Source: Alcaligenaceae bacterium | GTDB lineage: Bacteria > Pseudomonadota > Gammaproteobacteria > Burkholderiales > Burkholderiaceae_B | Assembly (NCBI GenBank): GCA_947379755.1 | Contig: CANCOC010000012.1 | Span: forward strand, 1 to 55,596 | Direction: 5' to 3' | Length of the DNA: 55,596 nucleotides | The notes under the pieces: model-generated | Told to the model about the DNA's origin: nothing | The model's database searches: none | The model's input: the letters and a program-made list of their open reading frames with translations, nothing else | Translations under genes and position numbers: made by a program | Part shown: positions 12,272 to 48,316 of the stretch, one piece after another | How positions within the stretch are numbered: the first letter of the stretch is position 1 | Layout: each line of letters opens with the position of its first letter

Positions 12272-12988
12272 TTATACCGACCTGCGAACCAGCATTTCTT
12301 TAATCTTGCCAATGGCCTTGGAAGGATTCAGGCCTTTGGGACACACGTCCACACAGTTCATGATTGTGTGGCAACGGAACAAACGATATGGATCTTCGAG
12401 GTTATCCAGACGCTCTTCTGTCGCATGATCACGCGTATCAGCAATAAAGCGATATGCCTGCAACAAACCGGCAGGACCGACAAACTTGTCAGGATTCCAC
12501 CAGAATGAAGGGCAGGAAGTCGAACAGCATGCACACAGAATGCACTCATACAGACCATCGAGCTCTTCGCGCGCAGCAGGTGTCTGCAAACGCTCTTTCT
12601 CTGGTGGCTGCGTATCATTGATCAGGTAAGGCTTGATCGAATGGTACTGGTTAAAGAACTGTGTCATATCGACGATCAGGTCACGAATCACTGGCAGGCC
12701 TGGCAAAGGACGCAATACGACCGGCTCTTTGAGCTCCAGCATATTGGTCGTACATGCCAGACCGTTTTTGCCGTTGATGTTCATGGCGTCCGAACCACAG
12801 ACGCCTTCACGACATGAGCGGCGCAACGAAAGACTGTCATCAACGTCCATCTTGATGCGAATCAACGCATCAAGCAACATCTTGTCAGTTGGCTGCAACT
12901 CGACTTCGAGTTTTTGCATGTAAGGGCGCTCGTCCTTGTCAGGATCGTAGCGATAAATTTCAAACTTCACGATGCGTTTTGTGCTCAT
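12272..12988 (-). CDS. sdhB: Succinate dehydrogenase iron-sulfur subunit
   Basis: Electron-transfer subunit of complex II, carrying 2Fe-2S, 4Fe-4S and 3Fe-4S clusters between FAD in SdhA and ubiquinone. I start it at ATG 12988 (MSTKRIVKFEIYRYDP, 238 residues). The frame is open to 13105, but that extension overlaps the end of sdhA and has no family similarity. The 2Fe-2S ligands are in CREGVCGSDAMNINGKNGLAC-type spacing (written here only as its two ends, CREGVCGSD and GLAC). The other clusters are bound by CILCACCSTSCP and by CHTIMNCVDVCPKGL. Located 23 bp after sdhA and 2 bp before sdhE. Confidence 0.96.
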   Translation of the reverse strand: MSTKRIVKFEIYRYDPDKDERPYMQKLEVELQPTDKMLLDALIRIKMDVDDSLSLRRSCREGVCGSDAMNINGKNGLACTTNMLELKEPVVLRPLPGLPVIRDLIVDMTQFFNQYHSIKPYLINDTQPPEKERLQTPAAREELDGLYECILCACCSTSCPSFWWNPDKFVGPAGLLQAYRFIADTRDHATEERLDNLEDPYRLFRCHTIMNCVDVCPKGLNPSKAIGKIKEMLVRRSV

Positions 12989-13011
12989 GATGGGTATCCA
13001 GAAATCCTGAC

Positions 13012-14790
13012 TTAGAAGGTCCGCGACTTGGGCGGAAAGCTTTCGACTGTGAGCGGCTGCAGTTGCACAGGCTTGTAATCCAGGCGGTTGTCTGCCGAGT
13101 ACCACAAGGTGTGCTTGATCCAGTTCTCATCATCGCGCGTTGGATGGTCATCGAGCGCATGCGCACCACGACTCTCTGTACGTGCAGCGGCAGAGTGAAT
13201 CGTCGAGCGGGCAACTTCAATCATGTTGCTCAATTCGAGGGCTTCGATCCGTGCGGTGTTAAACACCTTGGACTTGTCATTGAACGCAATGTTGTCGACT
13301 CTTGCAGCGAGGGCGTCAATTTTGGCAACGCCTTCTTTCAGTGTTGCGAGTGTACGGAATACACCACAATGCTGTTGCATCGCGTTGCGGATGTCGTTAC
13401 CAACTTCCTGAGTTTTTTCACCCGTCGTGCGTGACTCAATTTTATTGACGCGATCGATTGAGTAATCGACCGAAGCCTGAGGAAGTGGCTTGTGCGTGAG
13501 TTTCCCTGCAGCGTGTGCGGCAACGATATGATTGCCTGAAGCACGTCCGAACACAATCAAGTCGAGCAACGAGTTCGTACCCAGGCGATTTGCACCGTGG
13601 ACCGAAACTGCTGAACACTCACCGATTGCGTACAAACCATTCACGACCTGATTCTGCGTACCATCCCATGTCACAACCTGACCGTTATAGTTGGCCGGGA
13701 TACCGCCCATCTGGTAGTGAATGGTCGGAACAACAGGGATTGGTTCTTTGGTGGCATCAACGTTGGCAAACTTATGACCAATTTCAAGAATCGATGGTAA
13801 ACGCTTGCTGATGACATCGGCACCGAGATGATCGAGCTTCAGGTGAACGTAGGCGCCATCAGGACCACAGCCTCGGCCTTCCTTGATTTCCTGGTCCATG
13901 CAGCGTGAAATAAAATCACGTGGCGCAAGATCTTTCAGGGTCGGTGCATAGCGTTCCATGAAGCGTTCGCCGTCTTTGTTGAGCAGAATACCGCCCTCAC
14001 CGCGCACACCTTCAGTAATCAGCACACCTGCTCCGGCAACCCCGGTTGGGTGAAACTGCCAGAATTCCATGTCCTGCATCGGGATGCCCGCGCGCGAAGC
14101 CATACCCATGCCGTCGCCCGTGTTAATAAAGGCATTGGTCGAGGCAGCCCAGATACGGCCCGCACCGCCAGTCGCTAGCACGGTCGTCTTGGCTTCGAAA
14201 ATATACATTTCGCCGGTTTCCATCTCGAGGGCGGTCACGCCCACGACATCACCCGCCTCGTCACGAATCAGGTCCAGCGCCATCCATTCAACAAAAAATT
14301 GCGTGCGTGAAGCAACGTTGCGCTGATACAGGGTATGCAACATGGCATGGCCCGTGCGATCAGCTGCGGCACAGGCGCGCTGCACGGGTTTTTCGCCAAA
14401 GTTGGCAGTATGCCCACCGAACGGACGCTGATAGATGGTGCCATCAGCATTGCGGTCAAAAGGCATACCGAAATGCTCAAGCTCGTACACCGCATTGGGT
14501 GCCTCGCGGCACATGAATTCAATTGCGTCCTGATCACCCAGCCAGTCTGACCCCTTGACGGTGTCATACATGTGCCAGTACCAGTTGTCTTCACTCATGT
14601 TGCCCAGTGAAGCACCGATACCGCCCTGCGCAGCAACTGTGTGCGAACGCGTAGGAAATACTTTGGACAACACCGCAACATTGAGACCTGCGTTCGCAAG
14701 CTGTAATGAACAACGCATGCCAGCACCGCCGGCACCTACGACAACCACGTCAAATTTACGACGTGGCAATGATGATTTGACTGAAGTCAT
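13012..14790 (-). CDS. sdhA: Succinate dehydrogenase flavoprotein subunit
   Basis: Catalytic subunit of complex II, oxidising succinate to fumarate on covalent FAD. It has 592 residues. The N-terminal dinucleotide fold VVVGAGGAGM is at 16-25. His50 in TRSHTVAAQGG is the expected covalent FAD-histidyl ligand. Substrate and active-site regions include FHPTGVAGAGVLITEGVRG and RFMERYAP, and HGANRLGTNSLLDL lies near the C-terminal part of the FAD domain. The start MTSVKSSLPRRKFD at 14790 is 3 bp after the sdhD stop. SdhE, which helps flavinylate this protein, is encoded two genes downstream. Confidence 0.97.
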   Translation of the reverse strand: MTSVKSSLPRRKFDVVVVGAGGAGMRCSLQLANAGLNVAVLSKVFPTRSHTVAAQGGIGASLGNMSEDNWYWHMYDTVKGSDWLGDQDAIEFMCREAPNAVYELEHFGMPFDRNADGTIYQRPFGGHTANFGEKPVQRACAAADRTGHAMLHTLYQRNVASRTQFFVEWMALDLIRDEAGDVVGVTALEMETGEMYIFEAKTTVLATGGAGRIWAASTNAFINTGDGMGMASRAGIPMQDMEFWQFHPTGVAGAGVLITEGVRGEGGILLNKDGERFMERYAPTLKDLAPRDFISRCMDQEIKEGRGCGPDGAYVHLKLDHLGADVISKRLPSILEIGHKFANVDATKEPIPVVPTIHYQMGGIPANYNGQVVTWDGTQNQVVNGLYAIGECSAVSVHGANRLGTNSLLDLIVFGRASGNHIVAAHAAGKLTHKPLPQASVDYSIDRVNKIESRTTGEKTQEVGNDIRNAMQQHCGVFRTLATLKEGVAKIDALAARVDNIAFNDKSKVFNTARIEALELSNMIEVARSTIHSAAARTESRGAHALDDHPTRDDENWIKHTLWYSADNRLDYKPVQLQPLTVESFPPKSRTF

Positions 14791-14793
14791 GGC

Positions 14794-15177
14794 TTAAGCT
14801 CTCCAGAGGATGTGTACGAAATACACGACCGAACCAACCAGCCACAAGATGGTTAGAACCATTAAAAATAAACGCAGACCAACGGGTTTGATGTAATCCA
14901 TCCAGATGTCACGAATACCAATCCAGGCATGCCATGTAAGCGAGATCATGGCGAGCGACGCCAGGATCTGGCCAACAGGCACCATCAGACAGGTGAAAGT
15001 GAACAGATTTTTCCAACCCTGATATGTGAACCCTGACATCGTCAGAATTCCAGCGAGCAAAACCAGTGTGTAGATCGCCATAATAATGGCGGTGACGCGC
15101 TGGACAATGAAGCCAAACGTACCGTAATGGGCACCGACTACCAGGCGTTTTGGACCGATGTTTTCAATAGGGGTCAT
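14794..15177 (-). CDS. sdhD: Succinate dehydrogenase membrane anchor subunit D
   Basis: One of two hydrophobic subunits that anchor complex II and form the quinone/haem b site. I start it at ATG 15177 (MTPIENIGPKRLVVG, 127 residues). Its first base overlaps the sdhC stop as TGATG, a coupling arrangement, whereas the upstream in-frame GTG codons at 15180 and 15183 would lie inside sdhC. Three transmembrane helices are visible: about 22-45, 57-80 and 97-120. SLTWHAWIGIRDIWMDYI holds the conserved haem-ligand-region His. It is 3 bp before sdhA. Confidence 0.92.
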   Translation of the reverse strand: MTPIENIGPKRLVVGAHYGTFGFIVQRVTAIIMAIYTLVLLAGILTMSGFTYQGWKNLFTFTCLMVPVGQILASLAMISLTWHAWIGIRDIWMDYIKPVGLRLFLMVLTILWLVGSVVYFVHILWRA

Positions 15178-15587
15178 CACCACACTCCGAACAATTTAAG
15201 ACCAAAAACAGCTGTCAGTGCCAGACTCACGCCCAGAACAAGACTTGCGCTTTTAGCCGCTGATTCTTTGTCCATGCCGATATGGAGGTCGAGCACGAGA
15301 TAGCGGATACCGGCACAGAAATGATGCAGGTAACCCCAGATCAGAACCAGCAGGATAAGTTTGACAATTGGATTGCCAACCACAGCAGACATGGAGGCAA
15401 AGCCAGCTTCTGACACAAAGCTCATCGCAAACAGCGCGATCAGCAAGGGCAGACAGAGAAATAACAAGGCGCCGCTTACGCGATGCAAAATGGACACCTT
15501 ACCGGCCATGGGCAGACGGTAATTCATCAAGTCAACGGGACTGATGTTGCGAAACTGAGGACGCGGCTTTGGAGCTGAGTCAGACAT
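15177..15587 (-). CDS. sdhC: Succinate dehydrogenase cytochrome b556 subunit
   Basis: Membrane subunit of complex II that takes part in ubiquinone and haem b binding. The start chosen is ATG 15587 (MSDSAPKPRPQFRN, 136 residues) because family members begin this way; the frame is open to 15626. HRVSGALLFLCLP is the SdhC signature before helix 1. WGYLHHFCAGIRYLVLDLH contains the conserved His cluster, and three helices are visible. The stop overlaps the sdhD start. The 89 bp between the GntR gene stop and this start may hold a promoter (TTGAAT, 17 bp, then a weak -10), but I could not settle this. Confidence 0.92.
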   Translation of the reverse strand: MSDSAPKPRPQFRNISPVDLMNYRLPMAGKVSILHRVSGALLFLCLPLLIALFAMSFVSEAGFASMSAVVGNPIVKLILLVLIWGYLHHFCAGIRYLVLDLHIGMDKESAAKSASLVLGVSLALTAVFGLKLFGVW

Positions 15588-15676
15588 AACGACCTCGAAA
15601 AGAGAGCGATGGGATGGGATAAACACTACATTTTCGCCGATATGAGTCTTTCATTCAAATCAGCTAAATTACTGAA

Positions 15677-16456
15677 CTAATTCAAGCTATTGCGATAATA
15701 ATACTGATCAGTCACATAATGACCACTCCGTAATTCTACCGGACGATCTGCATAAGTGTAAGAAATTCTGTCCACTCGCAGCAAAGGTGTTGCCAAATTC
15801 ACTTTTAACAGGCCTGCAACGTCAGCATCGGCGGGCACTGCACGCAGTTTTTCTTCTGCACGGACCATGCTGACGCCAAACTGGGTTTCAAAAAAGCCAT
15901 AAAGTGGCCCGACATAGCCGGCTAGTGATTCTGCCGTCAAGCCTTTGAACAAGGCGCTCGGCAAATAAATATCATCCACAACCGTGGGTACACCGGAAAA
16001 TGACAGCAAGCGGCGGATCGCCACAACAGGATCCCCTGCCTTAAGCTCGAGGCTACGCGCCATTTCGGCGTTGGCCCTGATGCGACGGCAATCAAGAATG
16101 CGGCTTTCGGCAGGCTGGGGTTCACCTTCGTTTGGTGCGAGTCGCAAAAACCTGAACCGCACGCGGGCTTCGTGGTGGGTAGAGACAAACGTGCCTTTGC
16201 CCTGCCTGCGCATGAGCAGATGCTCTGCAGCCAGCTCGTCAACGGCCTTGCGCACGGTGCCCTGACTGACCTGAAAACGCGCCGCCAGTTCGATTTCGCT
16301 TGGAATCGCCTCGCCGGGCTTCCACTCACCACGGTCGAGCGACTGCACGAGCAAGGCTTTAATTTGCTGATACAGCGGGCTAAAGGCTGCGGAACCGGTT
16401 GCGGGAGCTGTCCCACGCTCGGCTGGCGCAGAGCTGCGTACGGTTAAATCAGACAT
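15677..16456 (-). CDS. GntR-family regulator with UTRA domain (HutC-like)
   Basis: Predicted DNA-binding regulator of central metabolism. I start it at ATG 16456 (MSDLTVRSSAPAERG, 259 residues); an upstream in-frame start at 16486 is possible. The winged helix spans about residues 26-92, with the recognition helix region VSQGTVRKAVDEL at 63-75 and the wing RRQGKGTFVS. From about 110 to 255 there is a UTRA ligand-binding domain (GDPVVAIRRLL, LLRVDRISYTYADRPVELR). It lies upstream of sdhC on the same strand and divergent from mdh. The 21-bp palindrome at 16524-16544 is in their shared spacer, and a near-identical copy precedes acnB. Its ligand is unknown from sequence; a TCA or methylcitrate intermediate is a guess. 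I do not recognise an established gene name. Confidence 0.88.
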   Translation of the reverse strand: MSDLTVRSSAPAERGTAPATGSAAFSPLYQQIKALLVQSLDRGEWKPGEAIPSEIELAARFQVSQGTVRKAVDELAAEHLLMRRQGKGTFVSTHHEARVRFRFLRLAPNEGEPQPAESRILDCRRIRANAEMARSLELKAGDPVVAIRRLLSFSGVPTVVDDIYLPSALFKGLTAESLAGYVGPLYGFFETQFGVSMVRAEEKLRAVPADADVAGLLKVNLATPLLRVDRISYTYADRPVELRSGHYVTDQYYYRNSLN

Positions 16457-16523
16457 GTTGAAGGGCAATTGAATACATAGGCTCATTGTTACACAGACAT
16501 GGCCGCAAGTCCACGACTCTTGT

Positions 16524-16544
16524 GTCTTATATAAGATATAAGAT
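16524..16544. promoter_or_regulatory. Candidate GntR operator, copy A (gntR/mdh spacer)
   Basis: Near-perfect 21-bp palindrome with arms GTCTTATA and TATAAGAT around TAAGA. It differs from copy B (24541-24561) at the last base only. It ends 3 bp upstream of the proposed mdh -35 box and lies 68 bp upstream of the gntR start. It could therefore act on mdh and on gntR itself. AT-rich palindromes of this length fit GntR/HutC-type dimers; assignment to the neighbouring regulator is inference. Confidence 0.72.
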
Positions 16545-16547
16545 TGG

Positions 16548-16576
16548 TTGACGCGCCCGGCAATTTACACTAGCAT
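16548..16576 (+). promoter_or_regulatory. Probable sigma-70 promoter of mdh
   Basis: TTGACG at 16548-16553, a 17-bp spacer and TAGCAT at 16571-16576. It predicts a start near 16583 and a leader of about 100 nt before the mdh ATG. Operator copy A lies immediately upstream. Confidence 0.6.
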
Positions 16577-16683
16577 CCTGTGCAGAATCCAGACCGCCTG
16601 GTTGAGATCGAACCGTCAGCCAGACGCGTTAAAAACGTTAAACTTAGCTTTGAACTTTTACATTAGTCATTTCGGAGATTGTT

Positions 16684-17673
16684 ATGTCAAAACCCGCCAT
16701 GCGTGTTGCGGTCACCGGTGCAGCAGGCCAGATCGGTTACGCCCTGCTGTTTCGTATTGCCTCGGGTGAAATGCTCGGCAAAGACCAGCCAGTGATTTTG
16801 CAGCTGCTTGAGATCCCTGACGAAAAAGCGCAAAAGGCGCTCAAAGGCGTCATGATGGAACTCGACGACTGCGCCTTCCCATTGCTGCAGTCGATGAGCG
16901 CACACAGCGACCCACGCGAAGCCTTTAAAGATGTCGACGTCGCACTGCTGGTTGGCTCGCGTCCACGCGGCCCTGGCATGGAGCGTGCCGAGTTGCTGGC
17001 TGTCAATGGCCAAATCTTTACCGCCCAGGGCAAAGCGCTCAATGACGTTGCCAGCCGCAATGTAAAAGTCCTGGTGGTTGGCAACCCTGCTAATACCAAT
17101 GCATATATCGCGATGAAATCGGCACCCAGCCTGCCAGCTAAAAACTTCACCGCCATGTTGCGCCTGGACCATAACCGCGCACTGTCGCAGCTTGCCACCA
17201 AACTGAACAAGCCAGTCGCCGACATCCAGAAACTCGCAGTGTGGGGCAATCACTCACCTTCGATGTATGCAGACTACCGCTTTGCCACGATCGGTGGCCA
17301 GAGCGTTTCAAAACTGATCAATGACGACGCATGGAATCGTGACACATTCCTGCCAACTGTTGGCAAACGTGGCGCAGCCATTATCGAAGCACGCGGCCTG
17401 TCTTCAGCCGCTTCGGCCGCAAACGCAGCGATTGATCACATTCGTGACTGGGTCCTGGGCACCAACGGCAAGTGGGTCACCATGGGTGTGCCATCCGATG
17501 GCACCTATGGCATTCCTGAAGGCATCATGTATGGCGTGCCAGTCACCTGCGAAGGTGGTGAATATCACCGCATCACAGGTCTGGAAATTGACGGGTTCTC
17601 GCGCGAGCGCATGGACCTCACTCTGAAAGAGTTACTCGAAGAGCGTGATGGCGTTGCCCATCTGTTGAACTAA
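16684..17673 (+). CDS. mdh: Malate dehydrogenase
   Basis: Interconverts malate and oxaloacetate with NAD(H), closing the TCA cycle. It has 329 residues, the length of the MDH group II enzymes found in Burkholderiales. The N-terminal nucleotide fold [19 protein letters not shown] is at about 9-27. The substrate-binding loop carries [23 protein letters not shown] and [12 protein letters not shown] follow, the latter with the catalytic His. ATG 16684 is preceded by CGGAGA at good spacing. A terminator follows the gene at 17686, so prpB downstream is likely a separate unit or depends on readthrough. Confidence 0.97.
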
Positions 17674-17685
17674 CGCACTAAACGA

Positions 17686-17713
17686 ATGGGCCCACTGATG
17701 GGCCCATTTTTTT
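17686..17713 (+). terminator. Terminator after mdh
   Basis: Arms ATGGGCCCA (17686-17694) and TGGGCCCAT (17699-17707) form a 9-bp perfect stem with a 4-nt loop, followed by a run of T. It lies 12 bp after the mdh stop and 28 bp before the prpB start. Confidence 0.9.
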
Positions 17714-17740
17714 AATAATAATTAAGCACTGGAGTCATGC

Positions 17741-18634
17741 ATGTCTAACCAAGCTACCGCTGGCCAACGTTTTCGCGCTGCACTTGCCGCAGAAAAACCT
17801 CTACAAATTATTGGCGCGATCAACGCCAACCATGCGCTGCTTGCCAAGCGTGCCGGCTTTCATGCCATCTATCTGTCTGGCGGCGGAGTCGCTGCAGGTT
17901 CACTGGGTTTGCCAGACCTGGGCATCAATACGCTGGACGACGTGCTGACAGACGTACGCCGCATTACCGACGTCTGCGACACACCACTGATTGTCGACAT
18001 CGACACCGGCTTTGGTCCCTCAGCCTTCAACATTGCTCGCACCATCAAAAGTCTGACAAAATTTGGCGCGGCTGGATGCCATATTGAAGATCAGGTTGGC
18101 GCCAAGCGTTGCGGCCACCGCCCTGGCAAGGAAATTGTCACCACAGAAGAAATGCGCGACCGCGTCAAAGCAGCAACCGATGCGCGTACAGATGACAGCT
18201 TCTACATCATCGCGCGTACCGATGCGATTGCCGCCCAGGGCGTTGATGCAGCCATTGAGCGTGCACTGGCATGTGTAGAAGCAGGTGCCGATGCAATCTT
18301 TGCCGAAGCCGCCTACGACCTGGCCACTTTTGACAAATTTGCCAAAGCCATCAGCGTGCCTTTGCTTGCCAACATTACCGAGTTCGGACAGACACCGTTA
18401 TTTACGGTTGAAGAGTTACGCTCAGTTGGCGTGGGCATGGTGCTCTATCCCCTGTCTGCATTCCGTGCGATGAACAAAGCCGCCGAAACGGTCTATCAGG
18501 CCATTCGTCGCGACGGTCACCAGAAAAATGTCGTCGATATGATGCAGACCCGCGAAGAACTCTACGACCGTATCAATTACCACGCCTTTGAAGGCGCACT
18601 CGACAAGTTGTTTGCTGAGAACAAGTCCAAGTAA
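17741..18634 (+). CDS. prpB: 2-methylisocitrate lyase
   Basis: Cleaves 2-methylisocitrate to pyruvate and succinate, the last step of the methylcitrate cycle for propionate breakdown. It has 297 residues, the normal length for PrpB. The PEP mutase/isocitrate lyase motif region is [19 protein letters not shown], with the active-site Cys in KRCGH. DIDTGFG carries the metal-binding Asp residues, and the [17 protein letters not shown] loop is typical of the PrpB clade. The start is ATG 17741, with GGAG 7 nt upstream. It is the first gene of prpB-prpC-acnD-prpF. The cleaved succinate would enter the SDH encoded nearby. Confidence 0.95.
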
Positions 18635-18673
18635 TCATTGCAACACACCGAATCTGAATCAAGGAAAATCAAC

Positions 18674-19900
18674 ATGGCCACAAGTAAAAAAGTTGCAGCA
18701 AAAAAAACTGCACCCGCCAAAGTCGTCACCGCTAAAGTCGCACCTGCTGCAGAAGCAGTTGCACCCGTTTTCAAACCTAAAAAATCCGTTGCACTTTCAG
18801 GCGTGACCGCAGGCAATACCGCACTGTGTACAGTGGGTCGCAGCGGCAACGACCTGAACTATCGCGGCTATGACATTCTGGACCTCGCCGATGTCAGCGA
18901 ATTCGAGGAAGTGGCCCATCTGCTGATTCATGGCAAGCTGCCCAACAAAGCCGAACTGGCTGCTTACAAAGCAAAACTGCGCGCCTTGCGCGGCCTGCCC
19001 GCCCAATTGCAGACCGTGCTCGAATCCCTGCCCGCAGCCAGCCACCCGATGGATGTCATGCGGACAGCCGCCTCGGCTCTGGGATGCATGCTGCCCGAAA
19101 AAGAAGATCATAACGTTCCTGGCGCACGCGACATCGCCGACCGCCTGATGGCAAACCTGGGTTCAGCCCTGCTTTACTGGTATCACTTTAGCCACAACGG
19201 TCGCATCATTGATGTACAAACCGATGATGACACGATCGGTGGCCACTTCCTGCATCTGCTGCACGGAACCAAACCCAACGCCGACTGGGTGCGTGCGATG
19301 CACACATCCTTGATTCTGTATGCAGAGCACGAGTTCAATGCGTCGACCTTTACCTGCCGCGTGATCGCAGGTACTGGTTCAGACATGTACTCAGCAATTT
19401 CGGGTGGTATTGGCGCACTGCGCGGACCCAAGCATGGCGGTGCAAACGAAGTCGCTTTCGAAGTACAGAAGCGCTACGAAAACCCCGCTGAGGCAGAGGC
19501 TGACATCCGTGCCCGTATCGAAAACAAAGAAGTTGTGATTGGCTTTGGACACCCTGTCTACACGATTGCCGATCCACGCAACAAGGTCATCAAAGAAGTT
19601 GCGCTGCGCCTGTCCAAAAAAGAAGGCACTACCAAAATGTACGACATCGCCGACCGTATCGAAGCCACGATGTGGGATGCCAAGAAGATGTTTGCAAACC
19701 TGGACTGGTTTTCCGCAGTGTCTTATCACATGATGGGGGTGCCGACTGCCATGTTCACGCCATTGTTTGTGATCGCACGCACCGCAGGCTGGTCAGCCCA
19801 CATTATCGAACAGCGCATCGACAACAAGATCATTCGTCCCGCCGCCAACTACACCGGCCCCGATGATCAAAAATTCGTGCCTCTCGCAAAGCGCAAATAA
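18674..19900 (+). CDS. prpC: 2-methylcitrate synthase with Lys/Ala-rich N-terminal tail
   Basis: Condenses propionyl-CoA with oxaloacetate to 2-methylcitrate. I start it at ATG 18674 (408 residues) because AAGGAAAAT lies just upstream; the frame is also open to 18638. Catalytic regions are clear: [27 protein letters not shown] and [12 protein letters not shown] hold the His/His/Asp triad. [14 protein letters not shown] and [12 protein letters not shown] mark the PrpC clade. Residues 1 to about 40 form an unusual low-complexity tail containing [16 protein letters not shown], resembling histone H1-like tails; the conserved core begins at about [14 protein letters not shown]. No alternative start would remove the tail without cutting the core. 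The acnD start follows 1 bp after the stop. Confidence 0.94.
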
Positions 19901-19901
19901 T

Positions 19902-22496
19902 ATGAACACAGCGAACCGCAAGCCCCTGCCCGGGACCAAACTGGACTACTTCGACACACGTGCTGCTGTTGAATCCATCAAGCCCGGCGCCTATGACACG
20001 CTGCCATACACGTCGCGTGTATTTGCCGAAAACCTGGTGCGCCGCTGCGATCCTGCATCGCTCGCCGCATCGCTCGCGCAGATCATTGAACGCAAGCGAG
20101 ACCTGGACTTTCCATGGTTTCCTGCACGGGTAGTTTGTCACGACATTCTGGGTCAGACTGCATTAGTCGACCTGGCGGGTCTGCGGGACGCAATCGCTGC
20201 GCAGGGCGGTGACCCCGCACTGGTTAACCCTGTCGTACAGACACAACTGATTGTCGACCACTCACTGGCAGTCGAAGCCGGTGGATTCGATCCGGACGCC
20301 TTTGAAAAGAACCGTGCGATCGAAGACCGCAGAAACGAAGATCGTTTTCACTTCATCAACTGGACCAAAAAGACATTCAAGAATGTCGAAGTGATTCCGC
20401 CCGGCAATGGCATCATGCACCAGATCAATCTGGAACGTATGTCGCCGGTGGTGCATGCTCTTGACGGTGTCGCCTTCCCGGACACACTGGTGGGCACGGA
20501 CAGCCATACCCCGCACGTTGATGCACTGGGTGTCATTGCGATCGGAGTTGGCGGCCTGGAAGCCGAAAGCGTGATGCTGGGCCGCGCTTCCTGGATGCGC
20601 CTGCCCGACATCATTGGCGTGGAACTGACCGGCAAACTTCAGCCGGGCATTACTGCGACTGACATGGTGCTGGCACTTACGGAATTCCTGCGTAATCAAA
20701 AAGTGGTGTCATCTTTCCTGGAGTTCTATGGCGAAGGCGCTGCCCACCTGACACTGGGTGATCGCGCAACCATCTCCAACATGACGCCTGAATATGGCGC
20801 CACGGCCGCGATGTTCTACATCGACCAGCAAACTATCGATTACCTTACCCTGACCGGACGCGATGCCGAGCAGGTCAAACTGGTAGAAATCTACGCAAAG
20901 CAGGCTGGTCTCTGGGCAGACAGCCTCAAGCACGCCGAGTACGAGCGGGTCATCCGATTCGACCTGTCTTCGGTCGTGCGCAATATTGCAGGACCGTCCA
21001 ACCCACACCGCCGGGTGCCAACCTCTGAATTGGCCACACGAGGCATTTCTGGCATCGTTGAGAATGAACCCGGTCTGATGCCCGACGGCGCGGTCATCAT
21101 TGCCGCCATTACCAGCTGCACCAACACCAGTAATCCGCGCAACGTCATTGCAGCGGGGCTGCTGGCTCGCAACGCCAACGCACGTGGCCTGACACGCAAG
21201 CCCTGGGTCAAAAGCTCGCTGGCACCAGGATCCAAGACTGTAGAGCTGTATCTCGAAGACGCAAAACTGCTGCCCGAACTTGAAAAACTGGGTTTTGGCA
21301 TTGTGGGCTTTGCCTGCACCACCTGTAACGGCATGAGCGGTGCGCTCGATCCCGTTATTCAGCAAGAAATCATTGACCGCGACCTGTACGCCACTGCGGT
21401 CCTGTCGGGTAACCGGAATTTTGACGGACGCATCCACCCCTACGCAAGACAGGCCTTTCTGGCCTCGCCCCCGCTGGTAGTCGCCTACGCGATTGCAGGC
21501 ACCATCCGTTTTGACATCGAACGCGATGTGCTGGGCATCGATCAGGCAGGCTTGCCCGTCACACTCAAAGACATCTGGCCATCCGATGCAGAAATCGATG
21601 CCATCGTTGCGGCTAGCGTCAAGCCCGAACAGTTCCGTAAAGTATACGAACCAATGTTTGCCGCGAGTGTTGAAACCGGCGAAAAGCTCAGCCCGCTGTA
21701 CGACTGGCGCGCACAAAGCACCTATATCCGTCGCCCCCCTTACTGGGAAGGCGCACTGGCGGGTGAACGCACGCTCAAGGGCATGCGCCCGCTTGCCGTA
21801 CTGGGGGACAACATCACCACGGATCACCTGTCACCTTCGAACGCCATCATGCTCGACAGCGCTGCGGGTGAATATCTGGCAAAAATGGGATTGCCTGAAG
21901 AAGACTTCAACTCCTACGCGACCCATCGTGGCGACCATCTGACTGCGCAGCGTGCGACGTTTGCCAACCCAAAACTGCTCAACGAAATGGTGCTCGAAAA
22001 TGGCCAGATCAAACAAGGATCACTGGCACGCATCGAACCTGAGGGCAAGGTCACCCGTATGTGGGAAGCCATCGAGACATACATGGATCGAAAGCAGCCA
22101 CTGATCATTGTGGCAGGCGCCGATTACGGTCAGGGATCTTCGCGAGACTGGGCAGCTAAAGGTGTACGACTGGCCGGCGTAGAGGCCATCGTCGCAGAAG
22201 GCTTCGAACGTATCCATCGCACCAACCTTGTTGGCATGGGCGTCGTGCCGCTTGAATTCAAGCCTGGCGTCAATCGTAAAACACTCAATATTGACGGCAC
22301 TGAAACCTATGATGTGCTCGGTGAACGTACGCCGCTTGCAACACTGACACTGGTGATCACACGCAAGAACGGAGAGCGAGTCGAAGTCCCGGTCACCTGT
22401 CGCCTCGATACGGCTGAAGAAGTATCGATCTACGACGCGGGCGGTGTATTGCAGCGCTTTGCCCAGGACTTTCTTGAGTCGACCTCCGCTGCTTAA
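19902..22496 (+). CDS. acnD: Fe/S-dependent 2-methylcitrate dehydratase AcnD
   Basis: Aconitase-superfamily enzyme that dehydrates 2-methylcitrate to 2-methylaconitate in the PrpF-dependent route, replacing the cofactor-independent PrpD. I start it at ATG 19902 (MNTANRKPLPGTKLDYFDTR, 864 residues), 1 bp after prpC; the frame is open earlier, inside prpC. Cluster-binding regions [10 protein letters not shown] and CTTCNGMSGAL supply the three Cys ligands. GTDSHTPHVDALGVIAIGVG and [11 protein letters not shown] are aconitase-family active-site segments. CNGMSGALDP in place of CIGNSG is typical of AcnD. prpF follows 40 bp downstream. No prpD is present in the window. Confidence 0.95.
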   Translation: MNTANRKPLPGTKLDYFDTRAAVESIKPGAYDTLPYTSRVFAENLVRRCDPASLAASLAQIIERKRDLDFPWFPARVVCHDILGQTALVDLAGLRDAIAAQGGDPALVNPVVQTQLIVDHSLAVEAGGFDPDAFEKNRAIEDRRNEDRFHFINWTKKTFKNVEVIPPGNGIMHQINLERMSPVVHALDGVAFPDTLVGTDSHTPHVDALGVIAIGVGGLEAESVMLGRASWMRLPDIIGVELTGKLQPGITATDMVLALTEFLRNQKVVSSFLEFYGEGAAHLTLGDRATISNMTPEYGATAAMFYIDQQTIDYLTLTGRDAEQVKLVEIYAKQAGLWADSLKHAEYERVIRFDLSSVVRNIAGPSNPHRRVPTSELATRGISGIVENEPGLMPDGAVIIAAITSCTNTSNPRNVIAAGLLARNANARGLTRKPWVKSSLAPGSKTVELYLEDAKLLPELEKLGFGIVGFACTTCNGMSGALDPVIQQEIIDRDLYATAVLSGNRNFDGRIHPYARQAFLASPPLVVAYAIAGTIRFDIERDVLGIDQAGLPVTLKDIWPSDAEIDAIVAASVKPEQFRKVYEPMFAASVETGEKLSPLYDWRAQSTYIRRPPYWEGALAGERTLKGMRPLAVLGDNITTDHLSPSNAIMLDSAAGEYLAKMGLPEEDFNSYATHRGDHLTAQRATFANPKLLNEMVLENGQIKQGSLARIEPEGKVTRMWEAIETYMDRKQPLIIVAGADYGQGSSRDWAAKGVRLAGVEAIVAEGFERIHRTNLVGMGVVPLEFKPGVNRKTLNIDGTETYDVLGERTPLATLTLVITRKNGERVEVPVTCRLDTAEEVSIYDAGGVLQRFAQDFLESTSAA

Positions 22497-22536
22497 AGCA
22501 AGTTGATTCAATTCACTTTTTTCAGGATTTCGTCAT

Positions 22537-23733
22537 ATGACTCATGCACCCCAGATCAAAGTGACCGCCACCTATATGCGTGGCGGCACAAGCAAAGGTG
22601 TATTTTTTCGCCTGCAAGACTTGCCCGCGGCTGCGCAGGTCCCTGGAGCAGCGCGCGATGCACTGCTGATGCGCGTCATTGGCAGCCCGGACCCCTACGG
22701 CAAGCAGATTGACGGTATGGGTGCCGCGACCTCCAGTACAAGCAAGACCGTCATCCTCTCCAAAAGTAGCCGCCCAGATCACGATATTGACTACCTGTTT
22801 GGTCAGGTCTCCATTGACAAACCCTTTGTCGACTGGAGCGGCAACTGCGGCAATTTGTCTGCAGCTGTGGGGCCCTTTGGTATTAGCAACGGGCTGGTCG
22901 ATCCAGACCGTATCCCGCAAAACGGCATGGCCGTCGTAAGAATCTGGCAGGCGAATATCAGCAAGACCATCATTGCGCACGTACCGATGACCAATGGTGC
23001 TGTGCAGGAAACGGGCGACTTTGAACTCGACGGCGTCACGTTTCCTGCCGCTGAGGTCCAGCTCGAATTCATGGATCCTGCAGCCGACGAAGACGGTGCT
23101 GGCGGCTCGATGTTCCCGACGGGCAACCTGGTCGACGACCTTGAGGTTCCTGGCGTTGGCATCCTCAAAGCGACCATGATTAATGCGGGAATCCCGACAA
23201 TTTTCGTCAATGCCTCAGATATCGGCTACACCGGCACCGAGCTTCAGGATGATATCAATGGCGACGCAAAAGCACTGACGATGTTCGAGACGATTCGCGC
23301 TTACGGTGCGGTACGCATGGGCCTGATCGGACATATCGATGAGGCGGCCAAACGCCTGCACACACCAAAAGTCGCGTTTGTTGCACGGCCTGCCGATTAC
23401 GTATCATCCAGCGGCAAAGCCGTGCCTGCGCGCGAGATCAACCTGCTGGTTCGGGCGATGTCCATGGGCAAACTGCACCACGCCATGATGGGCACAGCGG
23501 CGGTGGCGATTGGTACCGCCGCTGCCATTCCCGGCACGCTGGTCAACCTCGCCGCTGGCGGGGGGAATCTGGATGCGGTCAGGTTCGGTCACCCGTCAGG
23601 CACTTTGCGCGTTGGCGCACAGGCCAGCGAGGTCGCAGGCGAATGGAAAGTCACGAAAGCTATCATGAGCCGCAGCGCCCGCGTCCTGATGGAGGGCTCG
23701 GTCCGTGTACCTGGTGATGTAAAAGGTCTCTGA
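22537..23733 (+). CDS. prpF: 2-methylaconitate cis-trans isomerase PrpF
   Basis: Isomerises the 2-methylaconitate made by AcnD so that an aconitase can hydrate it to 2-methylisocitrate. It has 398 residues, normal for the family, and a diaminopimelate-epimerase-like fold. Conserved segments include YMRGGTSKGVFF at about 11-22, the glycine-rich DWSGNCGNLSAAVGPF with the active-site region Cys, and AAGGGNLDAVRFGHPSGTLRVG near the C terminus. It directly follows acnD, its obligate partner, and is closed by a terminator at 23758. With acnB or acnA as the final hydratase, all methylcitrate-cycle steps are present locally. Confidence 0.95.
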   Translation: MTHAPQIKVTATYMRGGTSKGVFFRLQDLPAAAQVPGAARDALLMRVIGSPDPYGKQIDGMGAATSSTSKTVILSKSSRPDHDIDYLFGQVSIDKPFVDWSGNCGNLSAAVGPFGISNGLVDPDRIPQNGMAVVRIWQANISKTIIAHVPMTNGAVQETGDFELDGVTFPAAEVQLEFMDPAADEDGAGGSMFPTGNLVDDLEVPGVGILKATMINAGIPTIFVNASDIGYTGTELQDDINGDAKALTMFETIRAYGAVRMGLIGHIDEAAKRLHTPKVAFVARPADYVSSSGKAVPAREINLLVRAMSMGKLHHAMMGTAAVAIGTAAAIPGTLVNLAAGGGNLDAVRFGHPSGTLRVGAQASEVAGEWKVTKAIMSRSARVLMEGSVRVPGDVKGL

Positions 23734-23757
23734 TCTCAACTACACTAGCTCCATCAT

Positions 23758-23790
23758 AAAGACGCCGCCCCTTTGTGCGGCGTCTTTTTT
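23758..23790 (+). terminator. Terminator after prpF
   Basis: Arms AAAGACGCCGC (23758-23768) and GCGGCGTCTTT (23777-23787) form an 11-bp perfect stem with an 8-nt loop and run into T residues. It closes the prpB-prpC-acnD-prpF operon and lies just before the next small gene. Confidence 0.93.
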
Positions 23791-23802
23791 ATCTGGTTCA
23801 AT

Positions 23803-24198
23803 ATGGCTCACTACATTTCAATTGCTCTGGTTTTTTCGTTCAGCTTGTTTACAACCTGTGCATTCGTTTTTTTCATATCTGGCGCTTATCTGTTTTTGTT
23901 CAAGATCAAACAGGCCAACCAGATCTTTAAACATCCATATTTGATGGATACAGACTTTGGTCAGTATCAATTTGCGGTCAAAATGGAAATCGTGCTTGAT
24001 TACTTTTTGCGCCTGATGTTCCCAAAATCCAAAATCTGGATCGCAGGCAACGCCAATCAGTTACTCGCGCATGTCGATCCAAAAAAAGTGCCGTGGAATA
24101 TCAGATGGCCCATCGTCGGCCTGTGGAGCGGATGTCTGATCGGAATGGTCGCCATGCTGGTGTTGTGGACCATCATCCTGAGTGGCATGGCAAAATAA
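23803..24198 (+). CDS. Small membrane protein of unknown function
   Basis: I do not recognise the family. The start is taken as ATG 23803 (MAHYISIALVFSF, 131 residues). An in-frame start at 23773 would lie inside the prpF terminator hairpin and is unlikely. Two hydrophobic helices are visible, at about 4-32 and about 106-129, with a charged middle segment containing FKHPYLMDTDFGQYQF and KVPWNIRWP. The predicted topology is a two-pass inner-membrane protein with a roughly 70-residue hydrophilic loop. It is followed by a GNAT gene 25 bp away. No functional link to the flanking aconitase genes can be shown. Confidence 0.7.
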   Translation: MAHYISIALVFSFSLFTTCAFVFFISGAYLFLFKIKQANQIFKHPYLMDTDFGQYQFAVKMEIVLDYFLRLMFPKSKIWIAGNANQLLAHVDPKKVPWNIRWPIVGLWSGCLIGMVAMLVLWTIILSGMAK

Positions 24199-24223
24199 AT
24201 ACAACATATCCGGAGCGTTCGTC

Positions 24224-24499
24224 ATGACCTTACCCATCACGCACAATACGCAAGCTCATTGCTTTGAAGCCGTGGTGGACGGTCACCGTTGCGTCATCGA
24301 CTATGTCCTGCACAACCAGGTCATAACAGTGACACACACTGGCGTACCCGACGCTGTGGGCGGCAGGGGCATTGCGGCAGTGATGACCCAGCACGTCCTC
24401 CAGGCCGCACGCACGGCAGGCTGGAAGGTCATCCCTGCGTGTACGTACACTGCAGCATATATGCGCAAACATACTGAGTTTTCTGACTTGCTTGAGTAA
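24224..24499 (+). CDS. Small GNAT-like N-acetyltransferase (YjdJ/COG2388 type)
   Basis: Short acetyltransferase-fold protein of 91 residues, from ATG 24224 with CCGGAGCG upstream. The family pattern is visible: an N-terminal beta hairpin (FEAVVDGHRCVIDYVL), then ITVTHTGVPDAVGGRGIAAVM with the acetyl-CoA loop GGRGIA. The closing segment GWKVIPACTYTAAYMRKH, ending in a Tyr and basic residues, is typical of this single-domain GNAT group. The substrate is unknown. It lies between a membrane protein gene and the acnB control region and shows no obvious metabolic link to them. Confidence 0.85.
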   Translation: MTLPITHNTQAHCFEAVVDGHRCVIDYVLHNQVITVTHTGVPDAVGGRGIAAVMTQHVLQAARTAGWKVIPACTYTAAYMRKHTEFSDLLE

Positions 24500-24540
24500 A
24501 AATCGCACCGAAAAAGCTAAGCATTGCTTTTTAAATTCAA

Positions 24541-24561
24541 GTCTTATATAAGATATAAGAC
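24541..24561. promoter_or_regulatory. Candidate GntR operator, copy B (acnB promoter)
   Basis: Perfect 21-bp palindrome: arms GTCTTATA and TATAAGAC around TAAGA. Twenty of 21 bases equal copy A before mdh. It ends 2 bp upstream of the proposed acnB -35 box and 129 bp before the acnB ATG. It contains a smaller palindrome TCTTATATAAGA as well, so two dimer registers are possible. Confidence 0.75.
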
Positions 24562-24563
24562 AC

Positions 24564-24592
24564 TTGCTCCAATATCATCTTCGATTTACAAT
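24564..24592 (+). promoter_or_regulatory. Probable promoter of acnB
   Basis: TTGCTC at 24564-24569, a 17-bp spacer and TACAAT at 24587-24592. The -35 box is weak and the -10 box good, a pattern common at activator-dependent promoters. Predicted start near 24599, giving a leader of about 90 nt. Spacing to the operator is almost the same as at mdh. Confidence 0.58.
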
Positions 24593-24689
24593 CGTCTCAA
24601 GATTTTGAGTCTCGGTTTTATCTGTATTTTTTGTTCACTGTCGGGCAGCTTTCATGGCGCCCTCCTCCAATCTTTTCAAAGGCGCTCCC

Positions 24690-27275
24690 ATGCTTGAAGC
24701 CTACCGTCAACACGTTGCTGAACGCGCAGCCCTCGGTATTCCGCCGCTGCCACTTACTGCCAAACAGACTGCCGAGCTGATTGAATTGCTCAAAGCCCCC
24801 CCTGAGGGTGAAGGTCCTGCACTGCTGGACCTCATTACTCACCGCGTCCCCGCGGGCGTGGATGATGCGGCAATGGTCAAGGCCTCCTATCTGGCTGCAG
24901 TCGCACTGGGTCACGAAAAATGCCCTCTGATTTCACGCATAAAAGCAACTGAATTACTCGGCACGATGCTGGGTGGCTATAACATCGGCCCACTGGTTGA
25001 GCTGCTGGATGACGCTGAAATTGGCACGATCGCTGCTGATGCACTGAAAAAGACACTACTGATGTTTGACGCCTTCCATGACGTCAAGGAAAAAGCTGCA
25101 AAAGGCAATGCCAATGCAAAGTCAGTCATGAAGAGCTGGGCAGATGGCGAGTGGTTTACCAGCCGTCCTGAAGTCCCCGAGAGCCTGACCATCACGGTAT
25201 TCAAAGTCACCGGCGAAACCAACACGGATGATTTGTCTCCCGCTCCTGACGCATGGAGTCGCCCTGATATTCCACTGCATGCACTGGCCATGCTCAAGAA
25301 TCCACGCCCCGGTATCGAGCCACAGGAATCAGGCAAAATCGGCCCTATCAACTTCATCAATGACCTGAAAAACAAAGGCCATCTGGTGGCTTATGTTGGT
25401 GATGTGGTCGGGACCGGCTCCTCACGTAAATCAGCAACCAACTCGGTGCTCTGGTTTACTGGTCAGGATATTCCCTTCGTTCCAAACAAGCGTTTTGGTG
25501 GTGTCTGCCTGGGCAACAAGATTGCTCCGATTTTCTACAACACCATGGAAGACGCAGGCGCGCTGCCAATCGAGCTGGATGTTGAGAACATGAACATGGG
25601 CGATGTGGTTGAACTGCGCCCATATGAAGGCAAAGCCCTGAAAGACGGCAAAGTGATTTCAACTTTTGAAGTGAAATCAGAAGTGCTGTTTGATGAAGTC
25701 CGTGCAGGCGGTCGTATTCCACTGATCATCGGCCGTGGCCTGACAGGTAAAGCACGCGAAGCACTGGGTTTGCCACCCTCGACCTTGTTCCGTCTGCCGC
25801 ATAATCCAGCAGCATCAACCAAAGGTTTCACGCTCGCCCAGAAAATGGTCGGTCGCGCCTGCGGTCTGCCAGAAGGCACCGGCGTGCGTCCAGGTTCGTA
25901 CTGCGAACCCAAGATGACATCAGTCGGCAGCCAGGACACCACCGGCCCGATGACACGCGACGAACTCAAAGACCTCGCCTGTCTGGGCTTTTCGGCAGAC
26001 CTCGTGATGCAGTCGTTCTGCCACACCTCTGCATACCCTAAGTCGGTCGACGTTAAAACGCATCACACACTGCCCAAGTTCATGAGCACGCGTGGCGGGA
26101 TTTCGTTGCGTCCAGGCGATGGCGTGATCCACTCATGGCTCAACCGCATGCTGTTGCCCGACACAGTTGGCACAGGCGGTGATTCACATACCCGCTTCCC
26201 GATTGGTATCAGCTTTCCAGCTGGCTCTGGGCTGGTGGCTTTTGCCGCAGCAACAGGCGTGATGCCGCTGGATATGCCTGAATCAATTCTGGTTCGTTTC
26301 AAGGGCAAAATGCAACCTGGCGTGACCTTGCGTGATCTGGTCAGCGCGATTCCTTTGTATGCAATCAAAGCAGGTCTGCTGACTGTTGAAAAACAGGGCA
26401 AGATCAACGCATTCTCAGGCCGTATTCTTGAAATCGAAGGCTTGCCAGACCTTAAAGTCGAGCAGGCATTTGAATTGTCAGATGCATCAGCAGAGCGTTC
26501 AGCTGCAGGCTGCACAGTCCGCCTGAACAAAGAACCTATCATTGAGTACATCAACAGCAACATCGTGATGCTCAAGTGGATGATCGCCAATGGCTACGAA
26601 GACGAACGTAGCCTGGTGCGTCGTATCCATGCGATGGAATCCTGGCTGGCCAACCCTGAGTTGCTCGCCCCCGATGCGGACGCAGAATATGCATCTATCA
26701 TCGAGATTGATCTGGCAGACATTCACGAGCCAATCGTGGCGTGCCCGAACGATCCTGATGATGTCAAGATGCTGTCAGAGGTCGCTGGCACCAAGATTGA
26801 CGAAGTCTTTATCGGCAGCTGCATGACCAACATCGGCCACTTCCGCGCAGCCTCAAAGCTGCTCGAAGGCAAGCGCGACATGCCAGTCAAACTCTGGATT
26901 GCTCCACCAACCAAAATGGATGCTGCCCAACTGACGGAAGAAGGCCATTACGGCGTCTTTGGCTCGGCTGGTGCTCGCACTGAAACACCAGGCTGCTCGC
27001 TGTGCATGGGTAACCAGGCACAGGTCCGCGAAGGCGCAACTGTCATGTCAACCAGTACACGTAACTTCCCCAACCGTCTGGGCAAGAACACCAATGTGTA
27101 TCTGGGATCGGCCGAATTGGCTGCGATCTGCTCGAAACTCGGCAGAATCCCGACCAAAGCGGAATATATGACAGATATGGGTGTGCTCACGGCTCATGGC
27201 CACGAGATTTATCAGTACCTGAATTTTGACAAAATCGCAGATTACAAAGATATTGCAGATTCAGTCGATGCCTGA
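24690..27275 (+). CDS. acnB: Aconitate hydratase B
   Basis: 4Fe-4S hydratase that converts citrate to isocitrate and can also hydrate 2-methylaconitate in the methylcitrate cycle. I start it at ATG 24690 ([16 protein letters not shown], 861 residues), the usual AcnB start; the frame is open to 24654. The N-terminal HEAT-like and swivel domains precede the catalytic core, which is the AcnB order. [19 protein letters not shown] is present. The cluster Cys ligands are in [11 protein letters not shown] and [12 protein letters not shown]. The operator and promoter upstream suggest separate control. It is closed by a terminator at 27337 and followed by acnA. Confidence 0.96.
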
Positions 27276-46594: not shown

Positions 46595-48160
46595 TCAATC
46601 AGAAGCCGCCTGCAGCTGATCCAGAATCTCTCTCTTAATTTCAGCGATATCACGCACGCGTCTTGAGGCCGTTGTATTGCAGCGTCCCTTTCTCGGACAG
46701 CGAGAGCTACGTTGACAAATCACACGAGCTGGCTGCGTCAGGGCATCCTCAATCCAGCCGATGCTCAAAATTCGTGCGACGGCGCGTAACGCATCAGTCT
46801 CCGCCCGATTGAGCATCGCCTCGCCACCCTCCTCCAGGCAACGCTCACCAATACTATTTACGATGTCAGCAGCGCGTGCATCATTGGAGGATAACGCCGC
46901 AGCCAAATCAACACCGACGGACAGCACATGCGGGACGCCTGCCATATCCTTGGTATGCAAGGTATGGCAGCAATACAGTTGCCACTGATCATTTTCACGA
47001 ATCACAGAAAGCTGCGAGCTCGAAGTGTTCTGCTTTTTTTCGGTCATGCGAAAAACTGCCCAATTTGGACAAGGATCTTTCGCCTGCGTCATATTGCCCC
47101 AGGGCAATGGGATGCCGTTGCCCCGATACACTGCTCGAAAATGCCCGGAAGATGTCGCATCAAAAAAATGCCAATACGGATATGAAGATACTTTGGTCAT
47201 TCTGCGCATCATGACTGCAGGTGTCAGTTCCACTTTGTGCCCTGCTTCGACCCGGTGTTGCTCCCGGGTGAGAAAACGACGAAATGGAATCTTTGGGCAC
47301 AACAATGCACCAGCAAAAAAACTGCATTCGAAATCTCGCCATGCAAGCAGCACATCACTCGCTTCAATTCCTGCATGAATGGGTGAACCGCTATCCGGAC
47401 TTTCGCCAAACTCACCACCCGAAGCATGCGCGGATCTCAACCCGTCACCGCCATGCAACACTTTATGTCCCAGCAAAGAAGCCAGATCAAATTTAAGACG
47501 TGCAGGATCAGACTCTAAAACTTTATTCAGATAGATCGTTGAGGGAGGCTCATAAAACGAGCGCAAGACGCTTCGAACTTCGGCATCTTTATCACGTGCA
47601 ATCACAGGTTTATGTTCAAACCACCGGATTTCCAGGCCATGCTGCCTGCACATGTCCATGAGATCATCAACTGACAGTGGAAATTTTCGATTACCGACCT
47701 GCTCGGCCATGCGTTCAAGATCAGGATATTCATTGCGGGATGTTTCCTGGTGCGAGCGAATGAGCAAATGTGCAAACTGCCGACCTGTCGTGCCTGTTTG
47801 CGAGAGCAGCTCGGGAATCGCAGCCTGCAGGATATTTTTTGAAAAAAGAAAGCCTGGATCAAAGGGAATCCTGGCAGCGCCCCCCGCCGCCCGTTCTGAC
47901 GTGACGGGGGAAAACTCCGTGTTGTGATCAAGAAACCAGCTGGCCTGGCGCTGAAAGACCCTGGCAATCACAGCAAGCACCTCAGCAGAGGGACTGCGAC
48001 GACCACTTTCAATCATGCTGAGATAAGAGGTCGAAGGAGCACGCTGCGGATCAACCTCTGCACACCGTGCAGACAAGTCCTCAAGTGTGATGCGATGCTC
48101 TTTGCGCAAATTACGCAGTTTTGCACCGAGGAAATGATTATTTCTATTGAGTGCATCCAT
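46595..48160 (-). CDS. RamB/ScfR-type XRE regulator of short-chain acyl metabolism
   Basis: Large transcription regulator of 521 residues from ATG 48160 (MDALNRNNHFLGAKLRNL); the frame is open to 48181. The XRE helix-turn-helix covers about 9-75 (LEDLSARCAEVD, YLSMIESGRRSPS). A middle M78/IrrE-like domain has lost the HExxH zinc motif, reading GHKVLHG at 231-237, but keeps ECSFFAGALLCPKIPF. The C-terminal part carries Cys364 in KDPCPNW, Cys397/398, and a Cys482-x5-Cys488-x5-Cys494 set that could bind a metal cluster. Actinobacterial relatives (RamB, PrpR) control glyoxylate and methylcitrate genes, and the Mycobacterium PrpR is reported to carry Fe-S. It is divergent from aceA and so probably controls it. 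Confidence 0.87.
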   Translation of the reverse strand: MDALNRNNHFLGAKLRNLRKEHRITLEDLSARCAEVDPQRAPSTSYLSMIESGRRSPSAEVLAVIARVFQRQASWFLDHNTEFSPVTSERAAGGAARIPFDPGFLFSKNILQAAIPELLSQTGTTGRQFAHLLIRSHQETSRNEYPDLERMAEQVGNRKFPLSVDDLMDMCRQHGLEIRWFEHKPVIARDKDAEVRSVLRSFYEPPSTIYLNKVLESDPARLKFDLASLLGHKVLHGGDGLRSAHASGGEFGESPDSGSPIHAGIEASDVLLAWRDFECSFFAGALLCPKIPFRRFLTREQHRVEAGHKVELTPAVMMRRMTKVSSYPYWHFFDATSSGHFRAVYRGNGIPLPWGNMTQAKDPCPNWAVFRMTEKKQNTSSSQLSVIRENDQWQLYCCHTLHTKDMAGVPHVLSVGVDLAAALSSNDARAADIVNSIGERCLEEGGEAMLNRAETDALRAVARILSIGWIEDALTQPARVICQRSSRCPRKGRCNTTASRRVRDIAEIKREILDQLQAASD

Positions 48161-48220
48161 CTCAACCCCGCTATGAAACACGTTGATTTACTGAAAACCA
48201 AATCGTCAGTCATATTATTT

Positions 48221-48264
48221 TGTAAAATTTACACTGTCAAATTCTATTAACTATTATTCACAAA
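48221..48264. promoter_or_regulatory. Candidate regulator sites in the scfR-like/aceA spacer
   Basis: The 156-bp spacer is very AT-rich. It holds the 13-bp palindrome TGTAAAATTTACA at 48221-48233 and, 24 bp further, TTCACAAA at 48257-48264. The sequences TTTGTAAA (48220-48227) and the reverse complement TTTGTGAA resemble the TTTGCAAA-like boxes of RamB/PrpR proteins. Assignment to the adjacent regulator is inference. Confidence 0.45.
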
Positions 48265-48316
48265 TATTTTCAACTATTGTCAATCCATCAACTTTTAACA
48301 ACCGGAGATTGACATC

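Follow-up and report, generated by a model that had tools for sequence, protein, structure and literature searches.

A 55,596-nt stretch of DNA from an Alcaligenaceae bacterium (contig CANCOC010000012.1 of assembly GCA_947379755.1, positions 1-55,596; hereafter the window) carries two copies of a short operator-like sequence, one (site A) between mdh, encoding malate dehydrogenase, and the divergent gene for a GntR/UTRA regulator, and the other (site B) before acnB, encoding aconitase B. Comparison with a published motif and with related genomes indicates that sites A and B are very likely operators of this neighboring regulator, SdhR, and their placement relative to the predicted promoters makes class-II-like activation of mdh and acnB the reading that we favor, with moderate confidence.

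Two probable SdhR operators and their regulator

The 21-mer GTCTTATATAAGATATAAGA[T/C] is located at 16524-16544 and at 24541-24561, and direct reading of the sequence confirmed that the copies are identical at 20 of 21 bases, as an earlier, sequence-only reading of this DNA had stated. That reading had also claimed that no other intergenic region of the window holds a copy, which is borne out: no third place turns up when 3 mismatches are allowed, and a weight matrix derived from 29 orthologous sites (26 positions), which scores A at 48.9 bits and B at 29.9 bits, finds nothing above 2 bits in the window besides A, B and overlapping readings of them (a reversed-window control reaches 3.6 bits). 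Throughout the 3.37-Mb assembly, which is 94.6% complete, a 19-bp part of the motif matches only the same two places at up to 3 mismatches, apart from overlapping or reverse readings of them. A backwards control pattern likewise matches twice at this threshold; at a stringency of 1 mismatch both sites are exact and the control has 0 matches.

Three lines of evidence, the published motif, conserved adjacency and co-occurrence, connect these sites with SdhR, and the proposal of the sequence-only reading that the GntR/UTRA protein beside site A is the regulator is therefore well supported. The gene (15677-16486, minus strand) encodes a HutC-subfamily protein with a GntR DNA-binding domain (Pfam, 3.4e-21) and a UTRA domain (8.6e-33), and it adjoins sdhCDAB. 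A full-text literature search for TCTTATATAAGA returned one match, PMC4494728 (Suvorova et al. 2015, which cites Suvorova et al. 2012, J Bacteriol 194:3234), where SdhR is listed in the HutC subfamily of the GntR family with the operator TCTTATGTCTTATATAAGACATAAGA, described as a “palindrome with additional symmetry”. Site A differs from this consensus at 2 of 26 positions and site B at 5 of 26, all outside the core. The operator and its regulator are already named in print, and the present case is a further member of the SdhR regulon, with the same operator, the same kind of GntR/UTRA regulator and a place beside sdh genes, as the name SdhR implies; it differs in that site B has one outer arm and in that the host genome has two sites only. 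No experimental study of SdhR was among the literature matches listed; those listed for the bare name use it in other meanings, and such a study may exist beyond them. Neither the mdh, acnB, aceA and acnA targets nor the half-site geometry described below was met in those matches, which do not cover the 2012 source paper.

The operator seen in relatives is 26 bp long and centered on TCTTATATAAGA, with its axis at 16530/16531 in A and 24547/24548 in B, and the 21-bp palindrome described earlier represents one way of reading a 7-bp unit that is repeated; its sequence was correct, its symmetry axis was not. Site A (16518-16543, plus strand) has the form TCTTGTG-TCTTATATAAGA-TATAAGA, with both outer arms present. 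Site B (24535-24560, plus strand), with no mismatch in the core, retains the right arm TATAAGA, and its left arm is degenerate (ATTCAAG). On the conserved axis the operator center falls at about -52, and not at -48/-49 as previously proposed.

SdhR shares its domain architecture with DasR, YvoA and PhnF of the HutC subfamily: structure searches matched DasR (4zs8, E = 1.6e-22) and YvoA (2wv0, E = 1.1e-17), and the PhnF model TIGR02325 scored 5.9e-32, which is under the cut-off of that model. The operators differ, as most HutC-subfamily sites have GT and AC 4 nt apart and SdhR is given as an exception (PMC4494728). The ligand-binding domain has a close homologue in PDB 3cnv, a putative GntR-family transcriptional regulator whose 162-residue chain covers that domain only and matches SdhR residues 109-269 (E = 6e-61).

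Conservation of the operator with SdhR

An SdhR orthologue is encoded in 111 of 121 genomes of the family (E of 1.6e-78 or better; the best match in the remaining 10 is 5e-18 or there is none). We read the spacer between sdhR and mdh in 67 of these genomes, picked to span genera, and found the operator (at most 1 mismatch in the core and 7 in the 26-mer) in 63. One of the others, G030, misses the threshold with an intact core and 8 mismatches over 26, and the core is decayed in G034 and G112, both of genus g34, and in G027. Among named genome records, whose titles include Bordetella, Achromobacter, Caballeronia, Undibacterium, Janthinobacterium, Acidovorax and Ralstonia, we took the best 80 of 566 relatives and allowed up to 1 mismatch in the core and 8 in the 26-mer. 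Of these 80 loci, 79 have the operator in the sdhR-mdh spacer, mdh is the divergent neighbor of sdhR in 78, and sdhC follows sdhR in 75 (gaps of 28-275 bp); in the sole locus without an operator, L258, the contig extends just 126 bases beyond the gene on that side.

The acnB site is conserved as well. The gene is present in 110 of the 121 family genomes, and about 350 bp upstream of it were examined in 66 (in G091, where a contig end cuts the locus, from a start located by tblastn), 61 of which carry the core with at most 1 mismatch. Two genomes without it, G023 and G058, also lack an SdhR orthologue, and both belong to genus g24, in which G085 and G107 have regulator and acnB core alike. In another two, G082 and G104, acnB has no site of its own and can be served by the mdh operator, because it directly follows mdh. 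Among the 80 named-record loci, 19 contain acnB, 8 with its own site and 11 without, and in 10 of these 11 the gene lies on the same strand behind mdh, 1.6-2.7 kb away, such that one operator may serve both genes. This does not account for L198, where acnB lies at 4.1 kb and has no site of its own; L241 and L266 resemble the site-less loci in layout yet keep their own site. Loss of the motif upstream of mdh and acnB in relatives that keep the GntR gene had been named beforehand as the outcome that would speak against the proposal; instead, most of these relatives retain the motif.

Across the family, the strict motif (the 19-mer with at most 1 mismatch) occurs in 106 of 111 genomes with SdhR and in 3 of 10 without it (Fisher p = 1.3e-6, uncorrected for relatedness). 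Among 274 genomes of the class, the strict motif was found in 7 and a protein matching the SdhR alignment (1e-60) in 7, with 4 genomes in both sets; 2 of the 274 contain a match to the backwards control. One of the loci, L277 (G280:C1), comes from another family of the class and combines an SdhR orthologue of 54% identity with an exact 19-bp operator, and it was possibly transferred. In L278 (G263:C4), also from another family, a GntR protein 35% identical to SdhR adjoins a TCTTATATAAGATATAATA site, a sequence also present in G376, a genus-mate of G263.

Could the motif belong to some other protein, with the GntR gene a mere neighbor? Binding by SdhR is deduced from comparison, a GntR protein of only 35% identity stands beside a similar motif in G263, and exceptions to the co-occurrence count against the assignment: the strict motif is missing despite the presence of SdhR in G027 and in G034, G066, G090 and G112, all four of genus g34, G032 encodes SdhR and has a site before aceA yet, for no evident reason, none before acnB, and G069, G079 and G099, genomes 83-95% complete in 160-540 contigs, carry the strict motif without a detected SdhR. 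Moreover, the discrimination is lost when 3 mismatches are allowed, as 120 of 121 family genomes then contain the motif; in reduced genomes its matches are at that level about as frequent as those of the backwards control. Against another binder stand the overall co-occurrence, the joint loss in G023 and G058, the adjacency conserved across the 80 loci and the published assignment to SdhR (PMC4494728), and we consider this explanation improbable. Still less credible, to the point that we give it hardly any weight, is that the duplication reflects chance or a likeness to repeat elements and has no function. The sequence is AT-rich and of low complexity, and the control's two assembly matches at 3 mismatches would fit this idea; however, the 21-mer has 0 matches in 100 dinucleotide shuffles, the backwards pattern at 1 mismatch has none in the 121 family genomes, and conservation at orthologous places before mdh and acnB contradicts it.

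Operator-promoter geometry and the likely mode of action

Each copy in the window is followed by a predicted -35/-10 pair with a 17-bp spacer, as the sequence-only reading had noted: TTGACG-17-TAGCAT at 16548-16576 before mdh (16684-17673; NF003916, 1.1e-169) and TTGCTC-17-TACAAT at 24564-24592 before acnB (24654-27275; TIGR00117, 1499.9 bits), all on the plus strand. Such pairs are not above chance on their own, as the region 15600-24700 contains 6 promoter-like matches against 5.8 expected and the acnB pair is not among the 6; they are supported because they are conserved in relatives. On the opposite strand a weak sdhR promoter, GTGGAC-17-TAACAA, is predicted at 16486-16514, and promoter scoring chose a pair one base further on (TGGACT-17-AACAAT). 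Its predicted -10 overlaps the first ATG of the gene, which makes the ATG at 16454-16456 the more probable start of sdhR.

In relatives, we measured how far from the operator center the predicted -35 begins, with promoters picked by score and starts predicted. The -35 lies 16-17 bases from the center in 50 of 64 mdh promoters, and the picked -35 of sdhR, on the other strand, does so in 49 of 64. At acnB the distance is 15-17 in 43 of 60, 9 in 5 of 60, which have the left outer arm only, and 23 in 4 of 60, which have two right arms (G091, beyond the 60, is by eye a fifth). These three classes together account for 52 of 60 sites, and in them the last half-site ends 2-4, mostly 3, bp before the -35; the place of the half-site is kept about 3 bp before the -35 when the core is displaced by one unit of 7 bp. 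Median promoter scores were 10.8 for mdh, against a 95% shuffle level of 9.4, and 10.6 for acnB, against 8.5. The aceA sites of relatives (18, from 8 genera) have their best -10, a TAGACT/TAGAAT-like hexamer, 37 bases from the center in 16 cases and at 36 and 38 in the others; their -35 agrees with TTGACA at 1-3 of 6 positions, with a median of 2 that random sequence would also give, compared with medians of 5 for mdh and 4 for acnB. On the sdhR side, a -35-like GTCCA/GTCTA was weighed as a further half-site, and its distance varies between groups.

We propose that SdhR would bind ATAAGA half-sites repeated every 7 bp, in an array made up of the core TCTTATATAAGA and one or two outer arms. Site A would be a two-armed operator between the divergent sdhR(-sdhCDAB) and mdh promoters, with each -35 about 16-17 bases from its center, and site B a one-armed copy before acnB. 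The promoter-proximal half-site would end about 3 bp before the -35 (roughly -45 to -39), from where SdhR would most likely touch RNA polymerase in the manner of a class II activator; it would perhaps also limit expression of its own gene. The signal may be a ligand of the UTRA domain, for which a tricarboxylic acid (TCA) cycle acid or a related acid is a guess. The sequence-only reading had taken a constant place just upstream of the -35 as a sign of an activator. The position holds in the promoters of relatives, and activation is favored, though not demonstrated, because the operator is held fixed next to the -35 and at some targets stands before promoters without a recognizable one.

Alternatively, SdhR could be a repressor that, bound directly upstream of the -35, impedes RNA polymerase at the mdh, sdhR and acnB promoters until a ligand releases it. 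Most characterized regulators of the HutC subfamily are repressors, and the -35 of mdh (TTGACG) is good and needs no activator. At the acnB promoters with a spacing of 9 the -35 occupies the place of the right arm, and a single operator in a divergon with the regulator's own gene, as at site A, is common in the family according to PMC4494728. The geometry also has irregularities that weigh against activation: the median score of the sdhR promoters (7.5) is below the 95% shuffle level (8.0), 8 of 60 acnB sites fall outside the three spacing classes, the geometry at 15 acnA sites is scattered, and mdh promoters picked by the -10 alone place it 39-40 bases from the center in just 34 of 64. Repression nevertheless appears the less probable mode, at perhaps a third of our belief, as in most promoters the operator overlaps neither the -35 nor the -10, the half-site spacing is kept through 7-bp shifts of the core, and the aceA promoters of relatives have no recognizable -35 at all.

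Class-II-like activation by SdhR would have counterparts in CRP at -41.5 and FadR at fabA, where the proximal half-site likewise lies near -42 beside the -35. SdhR differs in its array of 7-bp repeats and variable core position, and activation here is deduced from placement. More tentatively, and with slightly less than even confidence, we suggest that SdhR is a HutC-family protein that activates TCA and glyoxylate genes by reading modular 7-bp half-sites, the distance from the last half-site to the -35 or -10 being fixed while the core lies one unit nearer or farther. The fixed half-site spacing across core shifts and the aceA operator-to--10 distance without a recognizable -35 are possibly new.

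Gene neighborhood and the wider regulon

The sdhCDAB genes (12272-15626, minus strand; Pfam) begin 50 bp downstream of sdhR and are perhaps reached from the sdhR promoter; the gene order after sdhR is sdhC, sdhD, sdhA, sdhB and a citrate synthase gene. On the other side of site A lie mdh, prpB, prpC, acnD, prpF, two small genes and acnB. The 21-mer and weight-matrix scans of the window found no separate SdhR site for the prpBC-acnD-prpF genes. In the stretch 17684-17741, a terminator-like stem (17684-17709) is located directly 3' of mdh, 31 bp before prpB.

Further targets were sought in 40 stretches around motif matches, hand-picked among the matches listed, with genes placed by tblastn. The site adjoins aceA, encoding isocitrate lyase, in 18 and acnA, encoding aconitase A, in 15. 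The remaining 7 comprise the sdhR locus L277, the distant GntR locus L278, and L104, L111, L291, L292 and L293, where none of the genes tested by tblastn matched beside the site. The acnA promoters of the relatives L097, L282 and L287 also have an inverted repeat of a second kind, TTGTC...GACAA, which surrounds the presumed -10 and may be the site of another regulator.

Both aceA (48317, plus strand) and acnA (27434) are present in the window, and no SdhR site was found at either. The divergent neighbor of this aceA (46595-48181, minus strand; region 46595-49627) encodes a protein with HTH_3 and DUF3612 domains, and that this protein took over control of aceA is a guess. The five genomes of the window's genus have three strict readings each, as the mdh and acnB sites alone would yield, and the pairing of mdh with acnB has the look of a TCA/glyoxylate regulon in reduced form. 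The compact regulon proposed by the sequence-only reading is therefore not fully supported and appears to be a local reduction: sdhR-sdhCDAB lies on the other side of site A, and in relatives further sites precede aceA and acnA.

These results assign a core-metabolism regulon in a genus that includes Jezberella montanilacus, and tie the named regulator SdhR to mdh and acnB and, in relatives, also to aceA and acnA. The promoter anatomy points to a sign of regulation that can be tested, namely activation, and predicts concretely how an unusual operator is read: if the modular reading is true, operators can be lengthened or flipped with the contact to RNA polymerase unchanged.

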